Shown here: one piece after another, positions 10,053 to 21,921 of the stretch | Layout: each line of letters starts with the position of its first letter | Position numbering within the stretch: position 1 is the first letter of the stretch | NCBI RefSeq assembly: GCF_024721115.1 | Contig: NZ_JAMDHK010000003.1 | Location: forward strand, 171,403-235,402 | Source: Salipiger pentaromativorans | GTDB taxonomy: Bacteria > Pseudomonadota > Alphaproteobacteria > Rhodobacterales > Rhodobacteraceae | DNA: 64,000 nt | Direction: 5' to 3' | Position numbers and translations under genes: made by a program | Notes under the pieces: model-generated | What the model saw: only the letters and a program-made list of their open reading frames with translations | Database searches by the model: none | Told to the model about the DNA's origin: nothing

Positions 10053-11012
10053 TCAGGCAAAGGCCCCCAGCGCGTGGGTCGCGATGGCGGTGTCCTGAAT
10101 ACCGGTGCCGGTCAGGTCGGCGATGGTGATCTGTTCAGGTGCCGTGCGGCCCGGATGGCGGCCCGCGACGATCTCGCCAAGCTCGGGGAGACCGGCGGGA
10201 TCGGGGGCAAGCCCCGCCGCCAGCACCGCACGCAGCTCGCCCAGATCGCGGGTCTGGCTGACCCGGTCGGCAACATAAAGATCCGCCCGCGCGAAACATT
10301 GCGGATCGAGCTCGTTCTTGCCCGACTGATCGCTGCCCATGGCGGTCACATGCTGCCCCGGACGCAGCCACTCCGCCCGCAGGATCGGCTCGGTGGCCGG
10401 CGTGGTCGTCACGACGATGTCGCCGAAAGCCGCCGCCTCGGCGGGATCGGCACAGGCCCGCACACTCATGCCCTCGCCGCTCAGCTCTTCGGCCAGCGCC
10501 CGCGCCTTGGCGGCATCGCGCGCCCAGATCACCGCCTCGGAGATCGGGCGCACCAGCGCCAGCGCCCGCAGCTGCATCCGCGCCTGAAGCCCGGCGCCGA
10601 AAATCGCCGCCCGGCGGGCATCCGCCCGCGCCAGATGCCGCGCCGCCACGCCGCCCGCGGCGGCGGTCCGCACATCGGTGAGATAGCCGTTGTCGAGCAG
10701 CACCGCCCGCACCCGGCCCGTCTCGCTCGACAGCACCACCATCAGCCCCGAGGTCGAGGGCAAGCCTTTGGCCGGGTTGTCGAAGAACCCCGGCGAGATC
10801 TTGACCGCAAAGCCCGGCAACCCGGGCACATAGGCGGTCTTGACGTCGACCTCGCCATTCACGTCCGGCATGTGCATCGACAGGATCGGCGGCATCGCCA
10901 CCCCGCCCCGCGCCAGCGTGGCAAAGGCCGCCTCGACCACGTCGATGGCGGCGGCATCCAGCGAAATCCGCGCGCGCAGATCCGCCTCGTGCAGAATACG
11001 AATGTCGCTCAT
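10053..11012 (-). CDS. Ornithine cyclodeaminase/mu-crystallin family protein (EutC- or iminosuccinate reductase-like)
   Basis: Protein of 319 residues with the ornithine cyclodeaminase fold: an N-terminal substrate domain (VDVKTAYVPGLPGFAVKISPGFF) and a Rossmann domain with GAGLQARMQLRAL. The family includes true cyclodeaminases, the ectoine-cluster protein EutC and BhcD, the iminosuccinate reductase of the beta-hydroxyaspartate cycle. The start overlaps the stop of the dehydratase upstream in an ATGA, so the two are made together. The combination of threonine-dehydratase-like and cyclodeaminase-like proteins is the one found as EutB-EutC and BhcB-BhcD. By analogy it would reduce an imino acid made by its partner. 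No ectoine hydrolase or BhcA/BhcC gene is in the window. Confidence 0.8.
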   Translation of the reverse strand: MSDIRILHEADLRARISLDAAAIDVVEAAFATLARGGVAMPPILSMHMPDVNGEVDVKTAYVPGLPGFAVKISPGFFDNPAKGLPSTSGLMVVLSSETGRVRAVLLDNGYLTDVRTAAAGGVAARHLARADARRAAIFGAGLQARMQLRALALVRPISEAVIWARDAAKARALAEELSGEGMSVRACADPAEAAAFGDIVVTTTPATEPILRAEWLRPGQHVTAMGSDQSGKNELDPQCFARADLYVADRVSQTRDLGELRAVLAAGLAPDPAGLPELGEIVAGRHPGRTAPEQITIADLTGTGIQDTAIATHALGAFA

Positions 11013-11977
11013 GCGTCCTGCTCCCTCATGATCCGGGCGTGCAGCGCCGGGTCGATGTTGCCGCCCGACAGGATCAGCACCAGCGGGCCGCGATCCGCGC
11101 GCAGCTTGCCGCCAAGGATCGCCCCCGCCCCGACGGCGGCGGCCCCCTCCACGATCTCTCCGTCCTCCCGCGCGAGATGGCGGAGGCCGGCGGCGATCTC
11201 CGCTTCGCTCAGCAGGATCACCTCGTCCACCAGGTCGCGGCACATGGCAAAGGTCAGGCGATTGTCGCGCCCCACGCCGCCGCCCAGCGAGTCGGCCAGC
11301 GTTTCCAGCTCCGCCACCTCGACCGGATGGCCCGCGGCCAGGCTCGCCGCCATGGCCGCCCCGCGCGCCATGCTGATGCCGACGATGCGAATGCCGGGAC
11401 GCAGCGCCTTCGCCGCCAGCGCGACACCGGACAGAAGCCCGCCGCCGGAGAGCGGCACGGCGATGGTGGCCGCATCGGGGAGCTGCGCGAGGATCTCGAG
11501 CCCAAGCGTCCCCTGTCCCGCGATCACATCCGCATGGTCGAACGGCGGGATCAGCGCAAACCCCTCGTCGCGCTCCAGCCGCCGCGCCTCTTCGAAGGCT
11601 TCGTCCTGGCTGGCGCCGGTCACCCGCGCCTCGGCCCCGAGCCCGGCGATGGCCTCGCGCTTGTTGCCGGGCACCAGCCGCGACAGGCAGATCACCGCCG
11701 GCACCCCGCGCTGCCGCGCCGCAAAGGCCAGCGCCCGGCCATGGTTCCCGGTCGAGGCGGTGGTGACCCCGGCAACCGCGCCGAGCCGCGCCACCGCATG
11801 CGCGGCGCCGCGCAGCTTGAAGGCGCCGGTTTCCTGCCGGTGTTCGCATTTCAGCCAGACAGGCCCGCCCGCCCGTGCCGACAGTCCGGGCGAGGGTTTG
11901 ACAGGCGTTTCCCGCACCCGGCCCCGGATCCGCTCCGCCGCCGCCTCGACGTCGTGCAAACTCATCCTGCGATCCAT
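11009..11977 (-). CDS. Threonine dehydratase-like PLP enzyme (EutB/BhcB-like)
   Basis: Fold-type II PLP enzyme of 322 residues. The lysine motif is ETGAFKLRGAAHAV, followed by the substrate loop STGNHGRAL; the glycine-rich phosphate-binding loop is PLSGGGLLSG. These enzymes remove water or ammonia from hydroxy amino acids, giving an imine. It is translationally coupled to the ornithine-cyclodeaminase-like gene, so it probably passes its product directly on. Candidates are a hydroxyectoine-derived acid (EutB) or beta-hydroxyaspartate (BhcB); sequence alone does not decide. The start at 11977 could also be 12 bases further in (MSLHDVEA). Confidence 0.8.
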   Translation of the reverse strand: MDRRMSLHDVEAAAERIRGRVRETPVKPSPGLSARAGGPVWLKCEHRQETGAFKLRGAAHAVARLGAVAGVTTASTGNHGRALAFAARQRGVPAVICLSRLVPGNKREAIAGLGAEARVTGASQDEAFEEARRLERDEGFALIPPFDHADVIAGQGTLGLEILAQLPDAATIAVPLSGGGLLSGVALAAKALRPGIRIVGISMARGAAMAASLAAGHPVEVAELETLADSLGGGVGRDNRLTFAMCRDLVDEVILLSEAEIAAGLRHLAREDGEIVEGAAAVGAGAILGGKLRADRGPLVLILSGGNIDPALHARIMREQDA

Positions 11978-12059: not shown

Positions 12060-13061
<1,002 letters not shown>

Positions 13062-13246: not shown

Positions 13247-15427
13247 CTAGAGCGAGCAGGACACGCAACCCTGCACTTCGGTGCCTTCCAGCGCCATCTG
13301 GCGCAGGCGGATGTAGTAGATCGTCTTGATCCCCTTCTTCCAGGCATAGATCTGCGCCCGGTTGATGTCGCGCGTCGTCGCCGTGTCCTTGAAGAACAGC
13401 GTCAGCGACAGGCCCTGATCGACGTGCTGGGTCGCCGCCGCATAGGTGTCGATGATCGCCTCGGCGCCGATCTCATAGGCGTCCTTGTAGAATTCAAGGT
13501 TGTCGTTCGACATGAAGGCGGCGGGGTAATAGACGCGGCCGATCTTGCCTTCCTTGCGGATCTCGATCTTGGCGGTGATCGGGTGGATCGACGAGGTGGC
13601 GTTGTTGATATAGCTGATCGAGCCGGTGGGCGGCACCGCCTGGAGGTTGCGGTTGTAGAGCCCGCCCTCGATCACCGCATCGCGCAGCGCGGCCCAGTCT
13701 TCGCGCCCCGGCACCTCGACGCCGAAGCGCCCGAAGAGCGCCCGCACGGTGTCGGTCTCCGGCAGCCAGTCGCGCTCGACATATTTGTCGAAGAACGAGC
13801 CGTCGGCGTATTTCGACGCCTCGAAGCCCACGAAACTGCGCCCCCGCTCCCTGGCCAGCGCGTTGGAGGCGCGCAGGCAGTGATAGAGCACGGTGGCGAA
13901 ATAGATATTGGTGAAGTCGATCCCCTCGGGCGAGCCGTAATGGATCCGCTCGCGCGCAAGGAAGCCGTGCAGGTTCATCTGGCCGAGCCCGATGGCATGG
14001 CTCTCGTCATTGCCGCGCCGCACCGAGGGCACAGAGTCGATCGACGACATCTCGGACACCGCGTTCAGCGCTCGCACCGCGGTGCCGACCGTGGCGCCGA
14101 GATCGCCGCCATCCATCGCCTTGGCGATGTTGAGCGAGCCGAGGTTGCAGGAAATATCCGTGCCCAGATGCTTGTAGCCGAGATCGTCGTTGAATTCCGA
14201 CGCCTCGTTGACCTGAAGGATCTCGGAACAGAGGTTCGACATGGAGATCCGCCCGGCCACCGGGTTCTCGCGGTTCACCGTATCCTCGAACATGATATAG
14301 GGATAGCCGCTCTCGAACTGGATCTCGGCGATGGTCTGGAAGAACGCCCGCGCATTGATCTTTTTCTTGCGGATCCTGGGGTTATCCACCATCTCGTGAT
14401 ATTTCTCGGTGACCGAGATCTCCGAGAACGCCTTGCCATAGACCCGCTCCACGTCATGCGGCGAGAACAGGTACATGTCGTCGTTCTTCTTCGCCAGCTC
14501 GAAGGTGATGTCGGGGATCACCACGCCGAGGCTCAGCGTCTTGATGCGGATCTTTTCGTCGGCATTCTCGCGCTTGGTGTCGAGGAACCGCAGGATGTCC
14601 GGGTGGTGGGCATTGAGATAGACCGCCCCCGCGCCCTGCCGCGCGCCGAGCTGGTTGGCGTAGCTGAAGGAATCCTCCAGAAGCTTCATCACCGGAATGA
14701 CACCCGAGGACTGGTTCTCGATGCCTTTGATCGCCGCGCCGTGCTCGCGGATATTGGTCAGCATCAGCGCCACACCGCCGCCGCGCTTCGACAGTTGCAG
14801 CGCCGAGTTGATGCCGCGCCCGATGCTTTCCATGTTGTCTTCGAGCCGCAGCAGGAAACACGAGATCAGCTCGCCGCGCTGCGCCTTGCCGGCATTGAGG
14901 AAGGTGGGCGTCGCCGGCTGGAACCGGCCGCCGAGCATTTCCCGCATGAGCTGCATCGCCAGCGCCTCTTCGCCGCGCGCCAGCGTCAGGGCGACCATCA
15001 CCACCCGGTCCTCGAACCGTTCGAGATAGCGCTTCCCGTCGCGGGTCTTCAGCGTGTAGCTGGTGTAGTATTTGAACGCGCCGAGGAAGGTCGGAAAGCG
15101 GAACTTGATCTTGTAGGCGGCGTCCCAGATCTTTGCCAGGAAGGCGTCGTCATACTGGCCCAGCACATGGGCCTCGTAATAGCCCTCATCGACCAGATAG
15201 CGCAGCTTTTCCTCAAGCGAGTGAAAGAACACGGTGTTCTGGTTCACATGCTGGAGGAAATACTGCCGCGCCGCCATGCGGTCGGCGTCGAAGCGGATCT
15301 TCCCCTCGTCGTCATAGAGGTTCAGCATCGCGTTCAGCGCGTGGTAATCCAGACCCTGCCATTCCACCGGCACCGCCTTGGCGGGGGCTGCGTCGTTCAG
15401 ATCGCGGTCGAGAAGTGCGTCTTCCAA
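13247..15427 (-). CDS. nrdE: Class Ib ribonucleotide reductase alpha (catalytic) subunit
   Basis: NrdE of about 726 residues, which reduces ribonucleotides to deoxyribonucleotides. Key elements are the active-site cysteine in [13 protein letters not shown], the NLCSEI loop with the radical cysteine, [10 protein letters not shown] with the second active-site cysteine, and the C-terminal swinging cysteine pair in VQGCVSCSL. No ATP-cone is present at the N-terminus, which separates it from class Ia. No ATG lies at the right place. A TTG at 15427 ([11 protein letters not shown]) gives the normal family length and overlaps the end of nrdI by 31 bases. A 5' extension to 15511 in the same frame reads as the shadow of nrdI. 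Confidence 0.94.
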
Positions 15428-15813
15428 AACCTGTCCAGTCCTTCTCTGACACGGGCGATGTCGGTCTCTGTGCCGGCCAGCTCGAACCGGTAGAGAACGG
15501 GGACGCGACATTTCTGCGCCACCACATCGCCCGCCAGGGCGAACAACGCCCCGAAATTGCGGTTGCCGCCGGCGATCACGCCGCGGAGATGCTGCCTCGT
15601 GTCCGGGTCGTTGAGGAACCGGATCACCTGTTTGTGGACCGCCCCCCGGCCCTGCCCGTCGGCATAGCTGGGCGTCACCAGAACAAAGGGCGCGCGGGGG
15701 GCGGGCATGGGCTCCTCGGGCGAGATCGGGATCCGCTGCGCCGTCAGCCCGAGCCGGGAGACGAAGCGCTGCGTGTTGCCCGAACGCGAGGAGAAATAGA
15801 CCAGCCCGCCCAA
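15397..15813 (-). CDS. nrdI: Flavodoxin-like ribonucleotide reductase maturation protein
   Basis: NrdI of 138 residues, the FMN protein that supplies oxidant for assembling the manganese-tyrosyl radical cofactor of NrdF. The N-terminus [14 protein letters not shown] is the flavin phosphate-binding loop, and [19 protein letters not shown] and [15 protein letters not shown] are the conserved NrdI segments. The start is a TTG 6 bases after the nrdH stop; no in-frame ATG exists nearby. The end overlaps nrdE. Confidence 0.95.
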
Positions 15814-15818
15814 GACAC

Positions 15819-16040
15819 TCAGCTCAGCGCGCTGATCTTGTCGGGGCGGAAGCCGGCCCAGTGATCGTCACCCGCCATCACCACCGGCGCCTGACGGTAT
15901 CCAAGCTCGGTCACCCGGGCCATCGCGTCGGCGTCCTCGGTGAGATCGATCAGGTCGAAGGCGATGCCCTTGGCGGCCAGCGCGCGTGTGGTGGCGGTGC
16001 ATTGCACGCAGGCGGGTTTGGAATACACGGTGATGCTCAT
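15819..16040 (-). CDS. nrdH: Glutaredoxin-like electron donor for class Ib ribonucleotide reductase
   Basis: NrdH redoxin of 73 residues with the redox motif CVQC at residues 11-14 and the C-terminal [23 protein letters not shown], including the WSGF-type segment that is WAGF here. It reduces NrdE in the cytosol. The ATG at 16040 gives the usual length; the frame extends upstream but that part overlaps the leader RNA. First gene of the nrdHIEF operon, 108 bases downstream of a cobalamin riboswitch. Confidence 0.95.
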
Positions 16041-16095
16041 GGTCCGTCCCTTGTCTCTGTCTGCCTGTTGGGCGATGGAGGGAGAGACGCGGACA

Positions 16096-16113
16096 GGCGC
16101 GGACACCCGCGCC
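16096..16113 (-). promoter_or_regulatory. Hairpin between the cobalamin riboswitch and nrdH
   Basis: Perfect 7-bp stem GGCGCGG/CCGCGCC with a 4-base loop in the leader, 56 bases before the nrdH ATG. It has no U-tract. It may be part of the riboswitch expression platform, acting on translation or Rho access. Seen directly; role inferred. Confidence 0.4.
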
Positions 16114-16147
16114 GACCACAGCTCCCGGACCCACCGCCCGGTGTCGT

Positions 16148-16323
16148 GTCGTTGTCCTGGCAGGTCTCCTGACTTGCGGCTCGACTGCCTCGGCCCCCCT
16201 TCCCGGCTGTCCCTGCCAGTGGATCGGGGCCTTGGCTTGCCGCTTACAGTTGCGGGGGCAGTGCCGGATTCTCACCGGCTTCCCTTTTCACCCGCAACGA
16301 GTCGCGGGCACCAAGACAACGAC
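16148..16323 (-). ncRNA. Cobalamin (B12) riboswitch upstream of nrdHIEF
   Basis: The minus strand carries the full set of conserved cobalamin riboswitch elements in order: the P1 strand GTCGTTGTC; then GGTGCCCGCGAC; then GGGAAGCCGGTGAGAATC; then ACTGCCCCCGCAACTG followed by TAAGCGG; then the 3' box GTCAGGAGACCTGCC; and the closing strand GACAACGAC, which pairs perfectly with P1. It reads towards nrdH, not metH. By analogy with other B12 riboswitches, cobalamin binding should lower expression of the genes downstream, here a B12-independent ribonucleotide reductase. Confidence 0.96.
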
Positions 16324-16353
16324 ATATTGCGCACGCGCGCCAATCGACGTCAA
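16324..16353 (-). promoter_or_regulatory. Probable sigma70-type promoter of the nrdHIEF transcript
   Basis: On the minus strand TTGACG (16353-16348) and CAATAT (16329-16324) are separated by 18 bases, and transcription would begin just at the 5' end of the riboswitch. The segment around the -10, GCGCAATATGTCGT, resembles one half of an NrdR box pair (ACACAATATMTTGTGT-like); a second, weaker ATAT-centred match overlaps the -35 at 29-bp centre spacing. The NrdR reading is tentative. Confidence 0.55.
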
Positions 16354-16371
16354 TATCTGGATTTCTCTTTG

Positions 16372-16534: not shown

Positions 16535-19500
16535 ATGGCCGCCACAGCTCTTCCCCGCTCGCCCGTCTTTGCCCGCCTGCACGACGCGGCGCGCGACCGC
16601 ATTCTCATCCTCGACGGCGCCATGGGCACGCAGATCCAGAAGCTCGGGCTGGTTGAGGGCGATTTCCAGGGCTGCGGCGGTGGGGCCTGCACCTGCCACC
16701 TGCCGCATGACAGCGACAAGCCGCAGCAGGGCAACAACGACATCCTGAACCTGACCAAGCCCGAGGCCATCGAAGAGATCCACTATCTCTACGCCATGGC
16801 CGGCGCCGATATTGCCGAAACCAACACCTTTTCCTCGACCGTCATCGCGCAGGCCGATTACGGCATGGAACACGCGGTCTACGACCTGAACTATCACGGC
16901 GCCCAGATCGCCCGCCGCGCCATGGACCGCGCCGAGGCCGAGGACGGCCGTCCGCGCTTTGTCGCCGGCGCGCTCGGGCCGACGAACCGCACCGCCTCGA
17001 TCAGCCCGGATGTGAACAACCCGGGCTTCCGCGCGGTGAGCTTCGATCAGCTCCGCGAAGCCTATGGCCAGCAGGTGCGCGCGCTCATCGACGGCGGCGT
17101 CGACATCCTGCTGATCGAGACGATTTTCGACACGCTGAACGCCAAAGCCGCGATCTTTGCCTGCGAAGAGGTCTTCGCCGAACGCGGCGAGCGCCTGCCG
17201 GTGATGATCTCGGGCACGATCACCGACCTGTCTGGCCGGACTCTTTCCGGCCAGACGCCCACCGCCTTCTGGCATTCGGTGCGCCACGCCCAGCCGCTGA
17301 CCGTCGGTCTGAACTGCGCGCTTGGCGCCGCCGCCATGCGTCCGCATCTGGCCGAAATCGCGGGTGTCGCCGACACCATGATCTGCGCCTATCCCAACGC
17401 GGGCCTGCCCAACGAGATGGGCGAATACGACGAGACGCCCGAGCAGATGGCGGCGCAGATCGCGGGATTTGCCCGCGAGGGTCTGCTGAACATCGTCGGG
17501 GGCTGCTGCGGCTCGACCTACGACCACATCCGCGCCATCGCGCAGGCGGTCGCGGGCCACGCCCCGCGCAAGATCCCCGAGGCGCAGCCGCTGATGAAGC
17601 TTTCGGGCCTCGAACCCTTCACGCTGACCAAGGACATTCCCTTCGTGAACGTGGGCGAGCGCACCAACGTCACCGGTTCGGCACGGTTCAAGAAGCTCAT
17701 CACCAACGGCGATTACGCCGCGGCGCTTGATGTGGCCCGCGATCAGGTCGAGAACGGCGCGCAGGTGATCGACATCAACATGGACGAGGGGCTCATCGAC
17801 AGCAAACAGGCGATGATCGAGTTCCTGAACCTCATCGCCGCCGAGCCCGACATCGCCCGCGTGCCGATCATGATCGACAGTTCGAAATGGGAGGTGATCG
17901 AGGCCGGGTTGCAATGCGTGCAGGGCAAATGCATCGTCAACTCGATCTCGATGAAAGAGGGCGAGGAAACCTTCCTTCAGCAAGCCCGGCTCTGCCGCCG
18001 CTACGGCGCCGCCGTGGTGGTCATGGCATTCGACGAAAAGGGCCAGGCCGATACCGAGGACCGCAAGGTCGAGATCTGCGCCCGCGCCTACAAGCTCCTG
18101 ACCGAAGAGGTGGGGTTCCCGCCCGAGGACATCATCTTCGATCCCAACGTCTTTGCCGTCGCCACCGGGATCGAGGAACATGACAATTACGGCGTCGATT
18201 TCATCGAGGCCGCCCGCCGCATCACCCGCGACTGCCCGCATGTGCATATCTCGGGCGGCATCTCGAACCTGTCCTTCTCGTTCCGGGGCAACGAGCCGGT
18301 GCGCGAGGCGATGCACGCGGTGTTCCTCTATCACGGCATTCAGGCCGGGATGGACATGGGCATCGTCAACGCCGGCCAGCTTGCGGTCTACGACCAGATC
18401 GACGCGGAACTGCGCGAGGCCTGCGAGGATGTGGTGCTGAACCGCAAACCCGCGAACGGCGGCAATGCCACCGAGAACCTTTTGGAGATCGCCGAGAAAT
18501 TCCGCGGCCAGGGCGGCGGCAAGACCCGCGAAAAGGACATGTCGTGGCGCGAACTGCCGGTGGCAAAGCGGCTGGAACACGCGCTGGTCAACGGCATCAC
18601 CGAATTCATCGACGCCGATACCGAAGAGGCCCGCCAGCAGGCCGAGCGTCCGCTGCATGTCATCGAGGGCCCGCTGATGGCGGGGATGAACGTGGTGGGT
18701 GATCTTTTCGGCGCGGGCAAGATGTTCCTGCCGCAGGTGGTGAAATCCGCCCGCGTGATGAAACAGGCCGTGGCCGTCCTGCTGCCCTATATGGAAGAGG
18801 AAAAGCGCCTCACCGGCGGCGACGGGCGCGAGGCGGCGGGCAAGGTGCTGATGGCGACGGTGAAGGGCGATGTGCATGACATCGGCAAGAACATCGTCGG
18901 CGTCGTGCTCGCCTGCAACAATTACGAGATCATCGACCTGGGCGTGATGGTGCCCGCCGAAAAGATCCTCGCCACCGCCAAAGCCGAGGGCGTGGATGTG
19001 ATCGGCCTCTCGGGCCTCATCACCCCCTCGCTCGACGAGATGGTGCATGTGGCCTCCGAGATGGAGCGCGAAGGCTTAGACATCCCGCTGCTGATCGGCG
19101 GCGCCACCACATCGCGCGTGCACACGGCGGTGAAGATTCACCCGCGCTACGGCAAGGGTCAGGCGGTCTATGTGACCGATGCCAGCCGCGCGGTGGGCGT
19201 GGTCTCCTCGCTGCTGTCGCCGGTGCAGAAACCCGGCTATGTGGCCAATATCCAGACCGAATATGCCGATGTGGCCGAGAAACACGCCCGCGCGGAGCTG
19301 GCCAAGAAACGCCTGCCGCTGGAGGATGCCCGCGCCAATGCGCTGACGCTCGACTTCGGCAACCATGCGCCGGCCCCCAGCTTTCTCGGCACCCGGGTCT
19401 TCGACGGCTGGGATCTGGCGGAACTGGCCGAATATATCGACTGGACGCCCTTCTTCCGCACCTGGGAGATGAAGGGGGTCTATCCCAAGATCCTCGACGA

Positions 19501-20305
19501 TCCCGAACAGGGCGAGGCCGCCCGCGCGCTTTTTGCCGACGCGCAGGCGATGCTGAAACAGATCATCGCCGAGAAATGGTTCCACCCGCGTGCCGTGGTG
19601 GGCTTCTGGCCGGCCAATGCGGTGGGCGACGACATCCGCCTCTTCACCGGCGAGGATCGCGCCGAGGAGCTGGCCACCTTCTTCACCCTGCGCCAGCAGA
19701 CCGCCAAACGCGGCGACCGGCCCAATGTGGCGCTGTCGGATTTCGTCGCGCCCGAAGGCACGCCGGATTACGTCGGCGGGTTCGTGGTGACGGCGGGCCG
19801 CGAGGAAATCGCCATCGCCAAGGCGTTCGAGGACAAGCACGACGATTATTCCTCCATTCTCGTCAAGGCGCTGGCCGACCGCTTTGCCGAAGCCTTTGCC
19901 GAGCGCATGCACGAGAAGGTGCGCAAGGAGCTTTGGGGCTATGCGCCGGACGAGACGGCCAGCAACGCCGATCTCATCGCCGAGCACTACGCCGGCATCC
20001 GCCCGGCCCCGGGCTATCCGGCACAACCCGACCACACCGAAAAGACCACCCTGTTCGAGCTGCTGGATGCCACCGCGGCCACCGGCGTCGAGCTGACCGA
20101 AAGCTATGCCATGTGGCCCGGGTCCTCGGTCTCGGGGCTCTATATCGGCCATCCCGACAGCTACTATTTCGGCGTTGCCAAGGTGGAGCGCGACCAGGTG
20201 GTCGATTATGCCGCGCGCAAGGGCATGGCGGTGGAAGAGGTCGAGCGCTGGCTCGGCCCGATCCTCAACTACACACCGGGCGCGGCGCAGGTTGCGGCGG
20301 AATAA
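16535..20305 (+). CDS. metH: Cobalamin-dependent methionine synthase
   Basis: Full-length MetH of 1256 residues. The order is the homocysteine-binding domain ([10 protein letters not shown]; zinc cysteines in GLNCALGA and GGCCGS), the methyl-THF domain ([18 protein letters not shown]), the B12 cap and Rossmann domains with [17 protein letters not shown], whose His781 is the lower cobalt ligand, and the C-terminal S-adenosylmethionine reactivation domain ending in [21 protein letters not shown] and [17 protein letters not shown]. It transfers the methyl group of methyl-THF to homocysteine in the cytosol. It is divergent from the riboswitch-controlled nrd operon; no riboswitch was seen on its own strand. 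A long reverse-strand frame inside it is only a shadow. Confidence 0.98.
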
Positions 20306-20352: not shown

Positions 20353-21921
20353 TCATTCCGCCGAGGACATCCCCACGCGCCGCAGCACGCGGCGTTCGAT
20401 GACCACGACAATCTGATAGAACAGCACCGACAGCGCCACCGAAACGGCGGCGACGCTCCAGATCATGCCGTAATCCAGAAAACCCCGGGACTGGTTCAGC
20501 AGATTGCCGAGCCCCTTGCCCGTCGCCAGCCACTCGGCGATCATCACCCCCAGCAGCGCCCGGGGCACCGTCAGCCGGGTCGCCGCGAAGAGATAGGGCA
20601 GCGAGGCGGGAATGGTGACCATGCGGATCTCGGTCCAGCGGCTGGCGCCATAGGCGCGCGGCAGCTCTTCGGCGCTGCGCGGCACCAGCGCCAGCCCCTG
20701 CGCCAGCGTGACGAAGGCCGGAAAGAAGGTGACCGAGATGGTGACCCACAGGGTCAGCGTCGTGCCCCGCCCGAGGATCAGCACCAGAAGCGGCGTCAGC
20801 GCCACCAGCGGCATGGTCTGGGTGATCAGCGCCACCGGCATGAAGGCGGCGATGGCGCGGGGGAAAAGCCGCGAGGAGATCGCCAGCAGGAAGGCAAAGC
20901 CGAGCCCCGCCAGCATCCCGACAAAGGTGATCGGCAGGGTTTCGGCCAGCGCCGCCAGAAGCCTTGCCTGCGCGCTCTCGGCGCTGCGCCCGAGAAAGAG
21001 GTAGTCGATCACCCCCCAGGGGGTTTTCGAGATCAGATCGGGCACGCCGGTCAGACGGATGAAACCCCACCAGAGCAGAAACGGCATCGCGATCGCCGCC
21101 AGCCCCAGCAGCAGGCGCGGCACAGGCGACAGTTTCGCCGGGGCGGCCTCGGGCACCGCGGCGTTCAGCGTCACCGCGCGGCTGGCGCCCAGCATGCGCC
21201 GCGACAGCAGGGCAAAGCCCGCATAGCTGAGCCCGGCGATCACCGTGGCCACCAGCCCGATGCCCCAGAGCCGGTCCGGCTCGCCCCGGCCGAGCGACCC
21301 CAGCAGATAGGTGCCGAGCCCCCAGCGTCCGCCGCCGCCGAACTCGGCGAGGATCGCGCCCAGCACGGCGTTGGGCGCGGCGACGCGCAGCCCGGCCAGG
21401 ATCGCCGGCACCGCGCCCCGAAGCTGCACCAGCCGCAACACGTCCCAGCGCCCGCCACCATAGGCCCGGATCAGGTCCCGGGCGCGGCTGTCGGCCTGGG
21501 TGATGCCGATGACCGTGGCGGTCATGGTGACGAAATAGACCCCCATCGCCGCCAGCGTGACGCGCGGCGCCATGCCCGACAGCGTCAGCACCAGGATCGG
21601 CGCGATGGCGATGGGCGGCAGCGCGAAGACGGCGATATTCACCCCGCGAAAGACCCGCAGCGCGGCGGGGAACAGCGCAAAGATCACCCCGGCGGCGATC
21701 CCCACCAGATTGCCGATCACAAAGCCCAGCCCCGAGGCGTAAAGCGTGGCCCAGATATGCAGCGGGTAATCCGCCCGGTCGATCCAGAGCCGGTGCAGGA
21801 TCTCGGTGAGACCGGGCAGCGCGCCGCCCGCCACCAGATCGAGGCGGCCGACGATCTCCCAGAGGAGCAGCAGGATCGCCGCGTTGCGCAGCCCGCTCCA
21901 GCGCGACGCCTCAGCCGCCAT
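20353..21921 (-). CDS. Fused double-domain ABC transporter permease (NitT/TauT type)
   Basis: Membrane protein of 522 residues made of two consecutive binding-protein-dependent permease domains. The first (about residues 60-250) has the coupling segment DLIRAYGGGRWDVLRLVQLRGAVPAIL, the second (about 320-510) has EELPRAYGASRWTEIRMVTIPASLPYLFAATRL. One polypeptide thus supplies both halves of the channel. It starts inside the end of the ATPase gene (11-base overlap) and forms an operon with an ATPase and an NMT1/THI5-like binding protein. Such transporters import taurine, nitrate, riboflavin, thiamine-precursor or pyrimidine-type compounds. The substrate is unknown. Confidence 0.85.
   Translation of the reverse strand: MAAEASRWSGLRNAAILLLLWEIVGRLDLVAGGALPGLTEILHRLWIDRADYPLHIWATLYASGLGFVIGNLVGIAAGVIFALFPAALRVFRGVNIAVFALPPIAIAPILVLTLSGMAPRVTLAAMGVYFVTMTATVIGITQADSRARDLIRAYGGGRWDVLRLVQLRGAVPAILAGLRVAAPNAVLGAILAEFGGGGRWGLGTYLLGSLGRGEPDRLWGIGLVATVIAGLSYAGFALLSRRMLGASRAVTLNAAVPEAAPAKLSPVPRLLLGLAAIAMPFLLWWGFIRLTGVPDLISKTPWGVIDYLFLGRSAESAQARLLAALAETLPITFVGMLAGLGFAFLLAISSRLFPRAIAAFMPVALITQTMPLVALTPLLVLILGRGTTLTLWVTISVTFFPAFVTLAQGLALVPRSAEELPRAYGASRWTEIRMVTIPASLPYLFAATRLTVPRALLGVMIAEWLATGKGLGNLLNQSRGFLDYGMIWSVAAVSVALSVLFYQIVVVIERRVLRRVGMSSAE

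Follow-up and report, generated by a model that had tools for sequence, protein, structure and literature searches.

The nrdHIEF Locus and Its Cobalamin Riboswitch

The window, meaning the whole 64-kb stretch of DNA that was analysed, carries on its minus strand the genes of a class Ib ribonucleotide reductase, preceded by a cobalamin riboswitch. The features of the locus, in window coordinates, are:

12060-13037, minus strand: nrdF, class Ib small subunit (TIGR04171, 478.7 bits, cut-off 355)
13247-15511, minus strand: nrdE, class Ib large subunit, given as the open reading frame from its first possible start (TIGR04170, 1218.5 bits, cut-off 750, residues 55-754)
15397-15813, minus strand: nrdI (TIGR00333, 136.6 bits, cut-off 74.65)
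15819-16040, minus strand: nrdH (TIGR02194, 101.5 bits, cut-off 85.75)
16083-16088, minus strand: GTCTCT, complement of AGAGAC (16058-16053) beside the ribosome site AAGGGA (16052-16047); longest-complement test and minimum-energy fold
16125-16141, minus strand: P13 hairpin, whose loop motif CGGTGGG (16136-16130) can pair with L5 of the aptamer; conserved loop, covarying stem and pairs in the predicted fold
16142-16330, minus strand: cobalamin riboswitch aptamer (cmscan, RF00174, 148.3 bits, E 1.2e-37, model positions 1-189 of 189)
16317-16332, no strand assigned: putative NrdR box 2, overlapping the -10 element CAATAT (16329-16324) and the 5' end of the aptamer; core 8/10
16348-16363, no strand assigned: putative NrdR box 1, overlapping the -35 element TTGACG (16353-16348); core 8/10, columns conserved in 31 loci
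16535-20305, plus strand: metH, a divergent neighbour outside the riboswitch's own transcript (NF007024, 2125.6 bits, cut-off 1497)

The four reductase genes lie in the order nrdH, nrdI, nrdE, nrdF and all score above their curated NCBIfam cut-offs, which bears out the identification of the target as class Ib nrdHIEF made in the earlier sequence-only reading of this DNA. The true start of nrdE probably lies further in, because the open reading frame overlaps nrdI. Among the neighbours in the window are a gene for a hydroxyectoine-utilisation dehydratase (EutB) near nrdF (11009-11977, minus strand) and an open reading frame of 522 aa (20353-21921, minus strand) that is matched twice by ABC permease models, as if two permeases had been fused.

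The aptamer is the one Rfam match in the whole window that reaches its gathering score, which for RF00174 is 31.5 bits, and the end of the match is separated by 101 nt from the ATG of nrdH, the first base of which is 16040. A full cobalamin riboswitch on the minus strand reading into nrdH, as had been claimed from the letters alone, was therefore recovered by the Infernal search. Two details of that claim need adjusting: the match extends to 16330, 7 nt past the end of the span of 16040-16323 first given, and the description of the P1 stem as perfect was slightly too strong, since two of the 12 contiguous pairs that it forms in the predicted fold are U-G.

The Leader Between Aptamer and nrdH

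The leader was compared in the window and 29 relatives, locus L031 (genome G149) being left out because its aptamer is decayed. A hairpin with the loop CGRNGGG lies 3' of the aptamer in all 30 leaders, and its stem, P13, covaries, with pair 1 in 29, pair 2 in 30, pair 3 in 26 and pair 4 in 24 of the 30; pair 2 alone is GC in 17, AT in 8, TA in 4 and CG in 1. The CTGCCCCCGC of L5 is exact in 28/30 leaders. At the level of sequence, the L5-L13 contact is thus represented by the loop motif, the L5 match and the covarying stem. AdoCbl riboswitches usually rely on a pseudoknot that joins a C-rich loop to sequence beyond the core (PMC2258182), and the P13/L5 pattern fits this.

Closer to nrdH, the 22 nt preceding the ATG were compared with the middle of the leader for the longest run of exact complementarity, whose mean length is 5.93 in cognate leaders, against 5.45 (sd 0.19) when partners are swapped, with 185 of 20000 swaps as high as the cognate mean, and 4.99 in base-shuffled leaders, with 0/500 as high. 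When alternative pairings were tested by duplex energy, the cognate partners had no significant advantage: 1316, 719 and 2348 of 5000 swaps did as well. The minimum-energy fold of the window's leader (z -3.0) pairs GTCTCT with AGAGAC, and has 16049-16045 and the A and U of the ATG paired as well. The ribosome-site complement in the leader is moderately supported.

An alternative is that ligand binding does not block the ribosome site but ends transcription in the leader, possibly by Rho-dependent termination. This explanation draws on a strong 7-bp GC hairpin in the leader, seen in both sequence and predicted fold, and on Propionibacterium acnes, in which a large part of nrdAB transcription appears to stop short of the first gene (PMC3848588). 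It is nevertheless quite unlikely for nrdHIEF, as the window's leader has neither a T-rich tail nor, on the minus strand, a terminator-like site, and the ribosome-site complement is conserved; a Rho-dependent ending may occur all the same. The lack of a terminator in this leader, together with the conserved P13 and ribosome-site complement, makes repression of translation the likeliest mode of control.

Promoter and Putative NrdR Boxes

No promoter was found by a standard sigma-70 scan, and the promoter is seen only through comparison of relatives, in which TTGAC lies 12-30 nt before the aptamer in 30/31 loci, against 6/526 background slots. With the 31 loci aligned on TTGAC, two palindromic cores like CWATATATWG lie across the -35 and -10 elements with centres 31 bp apart. 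Scored against the NrdR core consensus, which was assumed here as the reference, these give two putative 16-bp boxes spaced 15 bp apart near the promoter, and no other pair in the 64-kb window, nor any in 20 simulated 64-kb sequences, reaches at least 16/20. Tandem NrdR boxes are 16 bp long and mostly have 15-16 bp between them (PMC4409342; PMC12051234). The identification of the paired palindromes as NrdR boxes is moderately supported.

The box pair and the riboswitch do not always occur together. At the 16/20 threshold four riboswitch carriers (L046, L074, L101 and L121) are without the pair, which is present in 8 of 22 other loci scanned; among the family loci that lack the riboswitch, those of G076 and G127 keep the pair and those of G086 and G150 do not. 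In the host genome, no box pair was found in the 500 bases upstream of the nrdJ gene of 1213 aa described below, and the pair upstream of a second, NrdJ-like gene is weak, at 7 and 7 of 10.

Class II Reductases and Methionine Synthase in the Host Genome

The host genome (5.28 Mb in 39 contigs) holds four cobalamin riboswitches. The three outside the window precede, respectively, TonB receptor and ABC transporter genes of the B12-uptake type (matched by the BtuB and BtuC models at scores under their curated cut-offs), a CbiM/NikL/CbiQ cobalt transporter, and cobW-cobN.

The prediction that another part of the genome would encode a class II NrdJ was borne out: the search found one of 1213 aa (NF005736, 2208 bits, cut-off 1737), together with a second NrdJ-like gene of 768 aa (L013:4997-7303, minus strand, contig C11) that scores 587 bits with TIGR02504 (cut-off 400) and falls under the NF006417 cut-off. 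By eye, both translations contain NPCGE or NPCSE, PTGT and a cysteine-rich C-terminus. No large subunit besides NrdE, NrdJ and the 768-aa product was found in the genome with TIGR02504 at E 0.001. A shorter form like the 768-aa gene accompanies the long NrdJ in many genomes of the family.

No MetE was found in the host genome. Across the 35 nrdE-bearing genomes of the family a strong MetE match (E 1e-100) occurs in only three, two of them above the cut-off, and the remaining 32, the host included, have none, so that B12 is probably still needed for methionine in these bacteria. The proposed exchange of enzymes according to B12 supply is hence upheld as far as the presence of NrdJ goes, but in its simple form is incomplete: without MetE, a shortage of B12 should stop methionine synthesis too, which weakens the idea of a simple adaptation to lack of the vitamin.

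Conservation Within the Family

Among 295 genomes sampled from the family, 35 have a class Ib NrdE at E 1e-200, and in 31 of these a match to RF00174 lies upstream of nrdE on the same strand. Thirty of the 31 are above the gathering score, the exception being G149 at 29.2 bits. In G118 a gap between nrdI and nrdE puts the riboswitch 1.9 kb from nrdE, yet it adjoins nrdH. A permissive Rfam search of the nrd stretches of the other four genomes (G076, G086, G127 and G150) found no riboswitch. A class II enzyme above the TIGR02504 cut-off is present in 34/35 genomes (all but G150), that is, in 31/31 with the riboswitch and 3/4 without; counted by hand, the long NrdJ of ~1,200 residues is present in 30/31 and 3/4.

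The G149 element (L031:1701-1842, minus strand) lies before nrdH and appears decayed, with a recognisable 5' half and a degraded 3' half; this genome has NrdJ and is also one of the three with a MetE match. At four loci (L016, L022, L037 and L038, from G002, G092, G214 and G215) cobalamin riboswitches stand back to back, one for nrdHIEF and the other on the opposite strand, where a periplasmic binding protein gene is found in L016 and CbiM further on in L037.

Conservation in Named Genomes and Association With NrdJ

A scan of named genomes for NrdE was taken as its best 80 loci listed, and is not a census; 78 of these were assessable, L076 and L128 having too little upstream DNA. Among these listed loci the riboswitch is present in 66/78: 63 were recognised by motif (both riboswitch boxes on the operon strand), and Infernal added three of the other 15 (L056, L059 and L074) at 37 to 44 bits. 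Going by record titles, carriers among the listed loci include Rhizobium, Agrobacterium, Shinella, Ensifer, Phyllobacterium and Ochrobactrum. The 12 of the 78 listed loci without a riboswitch come from nine Paracoccus, Haematobacter (L060), Pseudoroseicyclus (L111) and Nesterenkonia (L124). The nine Paracoccus loci (L077, L078, L082, L083, L086, L087, L089, L092 and L094) belong to genomes with a class II enzyme, and other loci of the genus, such as L049 and L073, have the riboswitch, which within Paracoccus was thus apparently either lost or never acquired.

The search for NrdJ in the named set covered 49 of the listed loci, namely 37 positives and all 12 negatives, with 28 positives and L105 left aside. 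A class II enzyme above the cut-off is present in 37/37 positives and 10/12 negatives, neither L111 nor L124 having one, and a long NrdJ (~1,200 residues, counted by hand from frame lengths) in 35/37 and 7/12. The guessed link between riboswitch and NrdJ therefore extends across genomes, to all 31 positives in the family and all 37 searched in the named set. With the two sets pooled, after dropping five positives present in both (L056, L063, L064, L065 and L071), the class II enzyme accompanies 63/63 positives versus 13/16 negatives (Fisher p 0.007, uncorrected for kinship); taken singly, the sets give p 0.11 and 0.056, again uncorrected for kinship. The genomes without NrdJ above the cut-off in these two sets all lack the riboswitch (3/3), a comparison of few cases and uncorrected for kinship.

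A class-level sample of 385 genomes gave four further genomes with nrdE (G333, G387, G429 and G496), kept outside the pooled table; searching the family to which G333 belongs gave only that genome. None of the four has a riboswitch near nrdE. NrdJ is above the cut-off in G496, matches are ambiguous and below it in G387 and G333, and G429 has none but NrdE; the three genomes of this sample without NrdJ above the cut-off are thus also without the riboswitch, two of them with ambiguous sub-cut-off matches. As 10/12 named and 3/4 family negatives, plus G496, keep NrdJ, the enzyme does not require the switch.

The divergent metH had been proposed to make the region a small cobalamin control point, and the element might then serve metH, or both genes. 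The start of metH is indeed only 205 bp from the aptamer, on the opposite strand. The riboswitch lies on the nrd strand, and no Rfam match was found on the plus strand of the window or reading into metH; that riboswitches act on their own transcript counts further against the proposal. The gene was also seen in only 6/34 stretches from relatives; of the 28 in which it was unseen, most extend ~3 kb upstream of nrdH. The window and L028 share the divergent layout, and metH is in tandem in L026, L029, L032, L040 and L043, the last with C-terminal pieces only. The metH neighbourhood recurs and is not required, and a shared control point is very improbable. Least credible of all is that the riboswitch is a relic that no longer affects nrdHIEF, for while the G149 copy is decayed in its 3' half and 4/35 family genomes have no riboswitch, the window copy is the best-scoring of the four in its genome, P13 covaries, and the arrangement is found in 66 of the 78 assessable loci among the best 80 listed.

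Proposed Mechanism

The reading preferred here, to which a probability of about 85% is given, is that nrdHIEF is controlled at two levels: an AdoCbl riboswitch would repress its translation as long as NrdJ can be used, and NrdR would act on its transcription. Transcription would start from the promoter overlapped by the two putative NrdR boxes, at a level that NrdR would set by dNTP. In the mRNA, bound cobalamin would stabilise the contact between loops L5 and L13, and the ribosome-site region of nrdH would then be kept paired and translation blocked; without ligand, the leader would refold and leave the ribosome site free. What the analysis shows directly is the aptamer, the operon, NrdJ in the genome, the conservation and the covariation of P13; that the leader responds to ligand, in which direction, and how it pairs when ligand is absent are inferred. 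A precedent within the alphaproteobacteria is offered by reporters carrying the 5'-UTRs of Caulobacter btuB and metE, with their B12 riboswitches, which B12 shuts off at the level of translation (PMC6538847). The nrdHIEF switch resembles that of metE there in being an alphaproteobacterial B12 riboswitch that would shut off translation of a B12-independent isozyme, but unlike Caulobacter metE and btuB, which concern methionine synthase and B12 uptake, its target is a ribonucleotide reductase.

Relation to Known Systems

The locus, though conserved, is an unremarkable instance of a control scheme already known, to which class Ib adds a further case. In Streptomyces coelicolor, a B12 riboswitch is reported to control nrdABS (Borovok 2006), the operon of an oxygen-dependent reductase that does not use B12; the same cell has NrdJ as well. 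The likeness lies in a riboswitch on the operon of a B12-independent reductase, with NrdJ in the same genome; the S. coelicolor enzyme, however, is of class Ia, with control that is transcriptional going by the title of that work, whereas here the enzyme is of class Ib and control of translation is likelier.

A scheme in two layers, of NrdR boxes and a cobalamin riboswitch in the 5'-UTR, has been proposed for the nrdAB and nrdDG operons of P. acnes, in which nrdJ is proposed to supply most of the activity (PMC3848588). Putative NrdR boxes at the promoter followed by a cobalamin riboswitch in the 5'-UTR are likewise present at nrdHIEF. In contrast to the case studied here, P. acnes is an actinobacterium with class Ia and class III operons, and its nrdAB transcription appears to end early.

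Cobalamin riboswitch regulons have been described from 15 Rhodobacterales and 15 Rhizobiales genomes, with a category of 'isozymes of B12-dependent enzymes' (PMC3766115). The term 'nrd' has no match in the main text of that paper, and, given its coverage of both orders, the nrdHIEF case may already be in its tables. A literature search that covered listings and passages of papers, and the main text of PMC3766115, found no description of a cobalamin riboswitch on nrdHIEF.

What the Switch May Sense

An RNA switch that ties a class Ib reductase to B12 status across Rhodobacterales and Rhizobiaceae would help to predict which enzyme supplies DNA precursors in marine and soil bacteria under B12 scarcity. 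The rarity of strong MetE matches in the nrdE-bearing genomes of the family nonetheless raises the question of which shortage is sensed, as the switch would not give independence from B12 in 32/35 of them unless methionine were supplied, and it may instead guard against a shortage of the adenosyl-cofactor. In a more elaborate form, which is tentative and on balance doubtful, the putative NrdR promoter and the AdoCbl riboswitch would together act as a two-layer gate, in Rhodobacterales apparently unable to do without B12 (no MetE), that senses failure of the adenosyl-cofactor and not lack of the vitamin. Such failure might come from light or oxidative damage, cobalt shortage or poor adenosylation, and class Ib would then be the rescue while MetH continues with methylcobalamin.

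Some further observations were made among the named genomes. One of the plasmid records of Paracoccus denitrificans matches, at 71.9%, DNA that runs from inside the aptamer through nrdH. In Shinella, metE and a gene for a hotdog-domain protein lie just upstream of nrdHIEF and in the same direction. Lastly, nrdHIEF with its riboswitch leader is also found on large plasmids, including Shinella pbSHIWSC3 and Ponticoccus p-SCP4 (L129, L131 and further plasmid matches).
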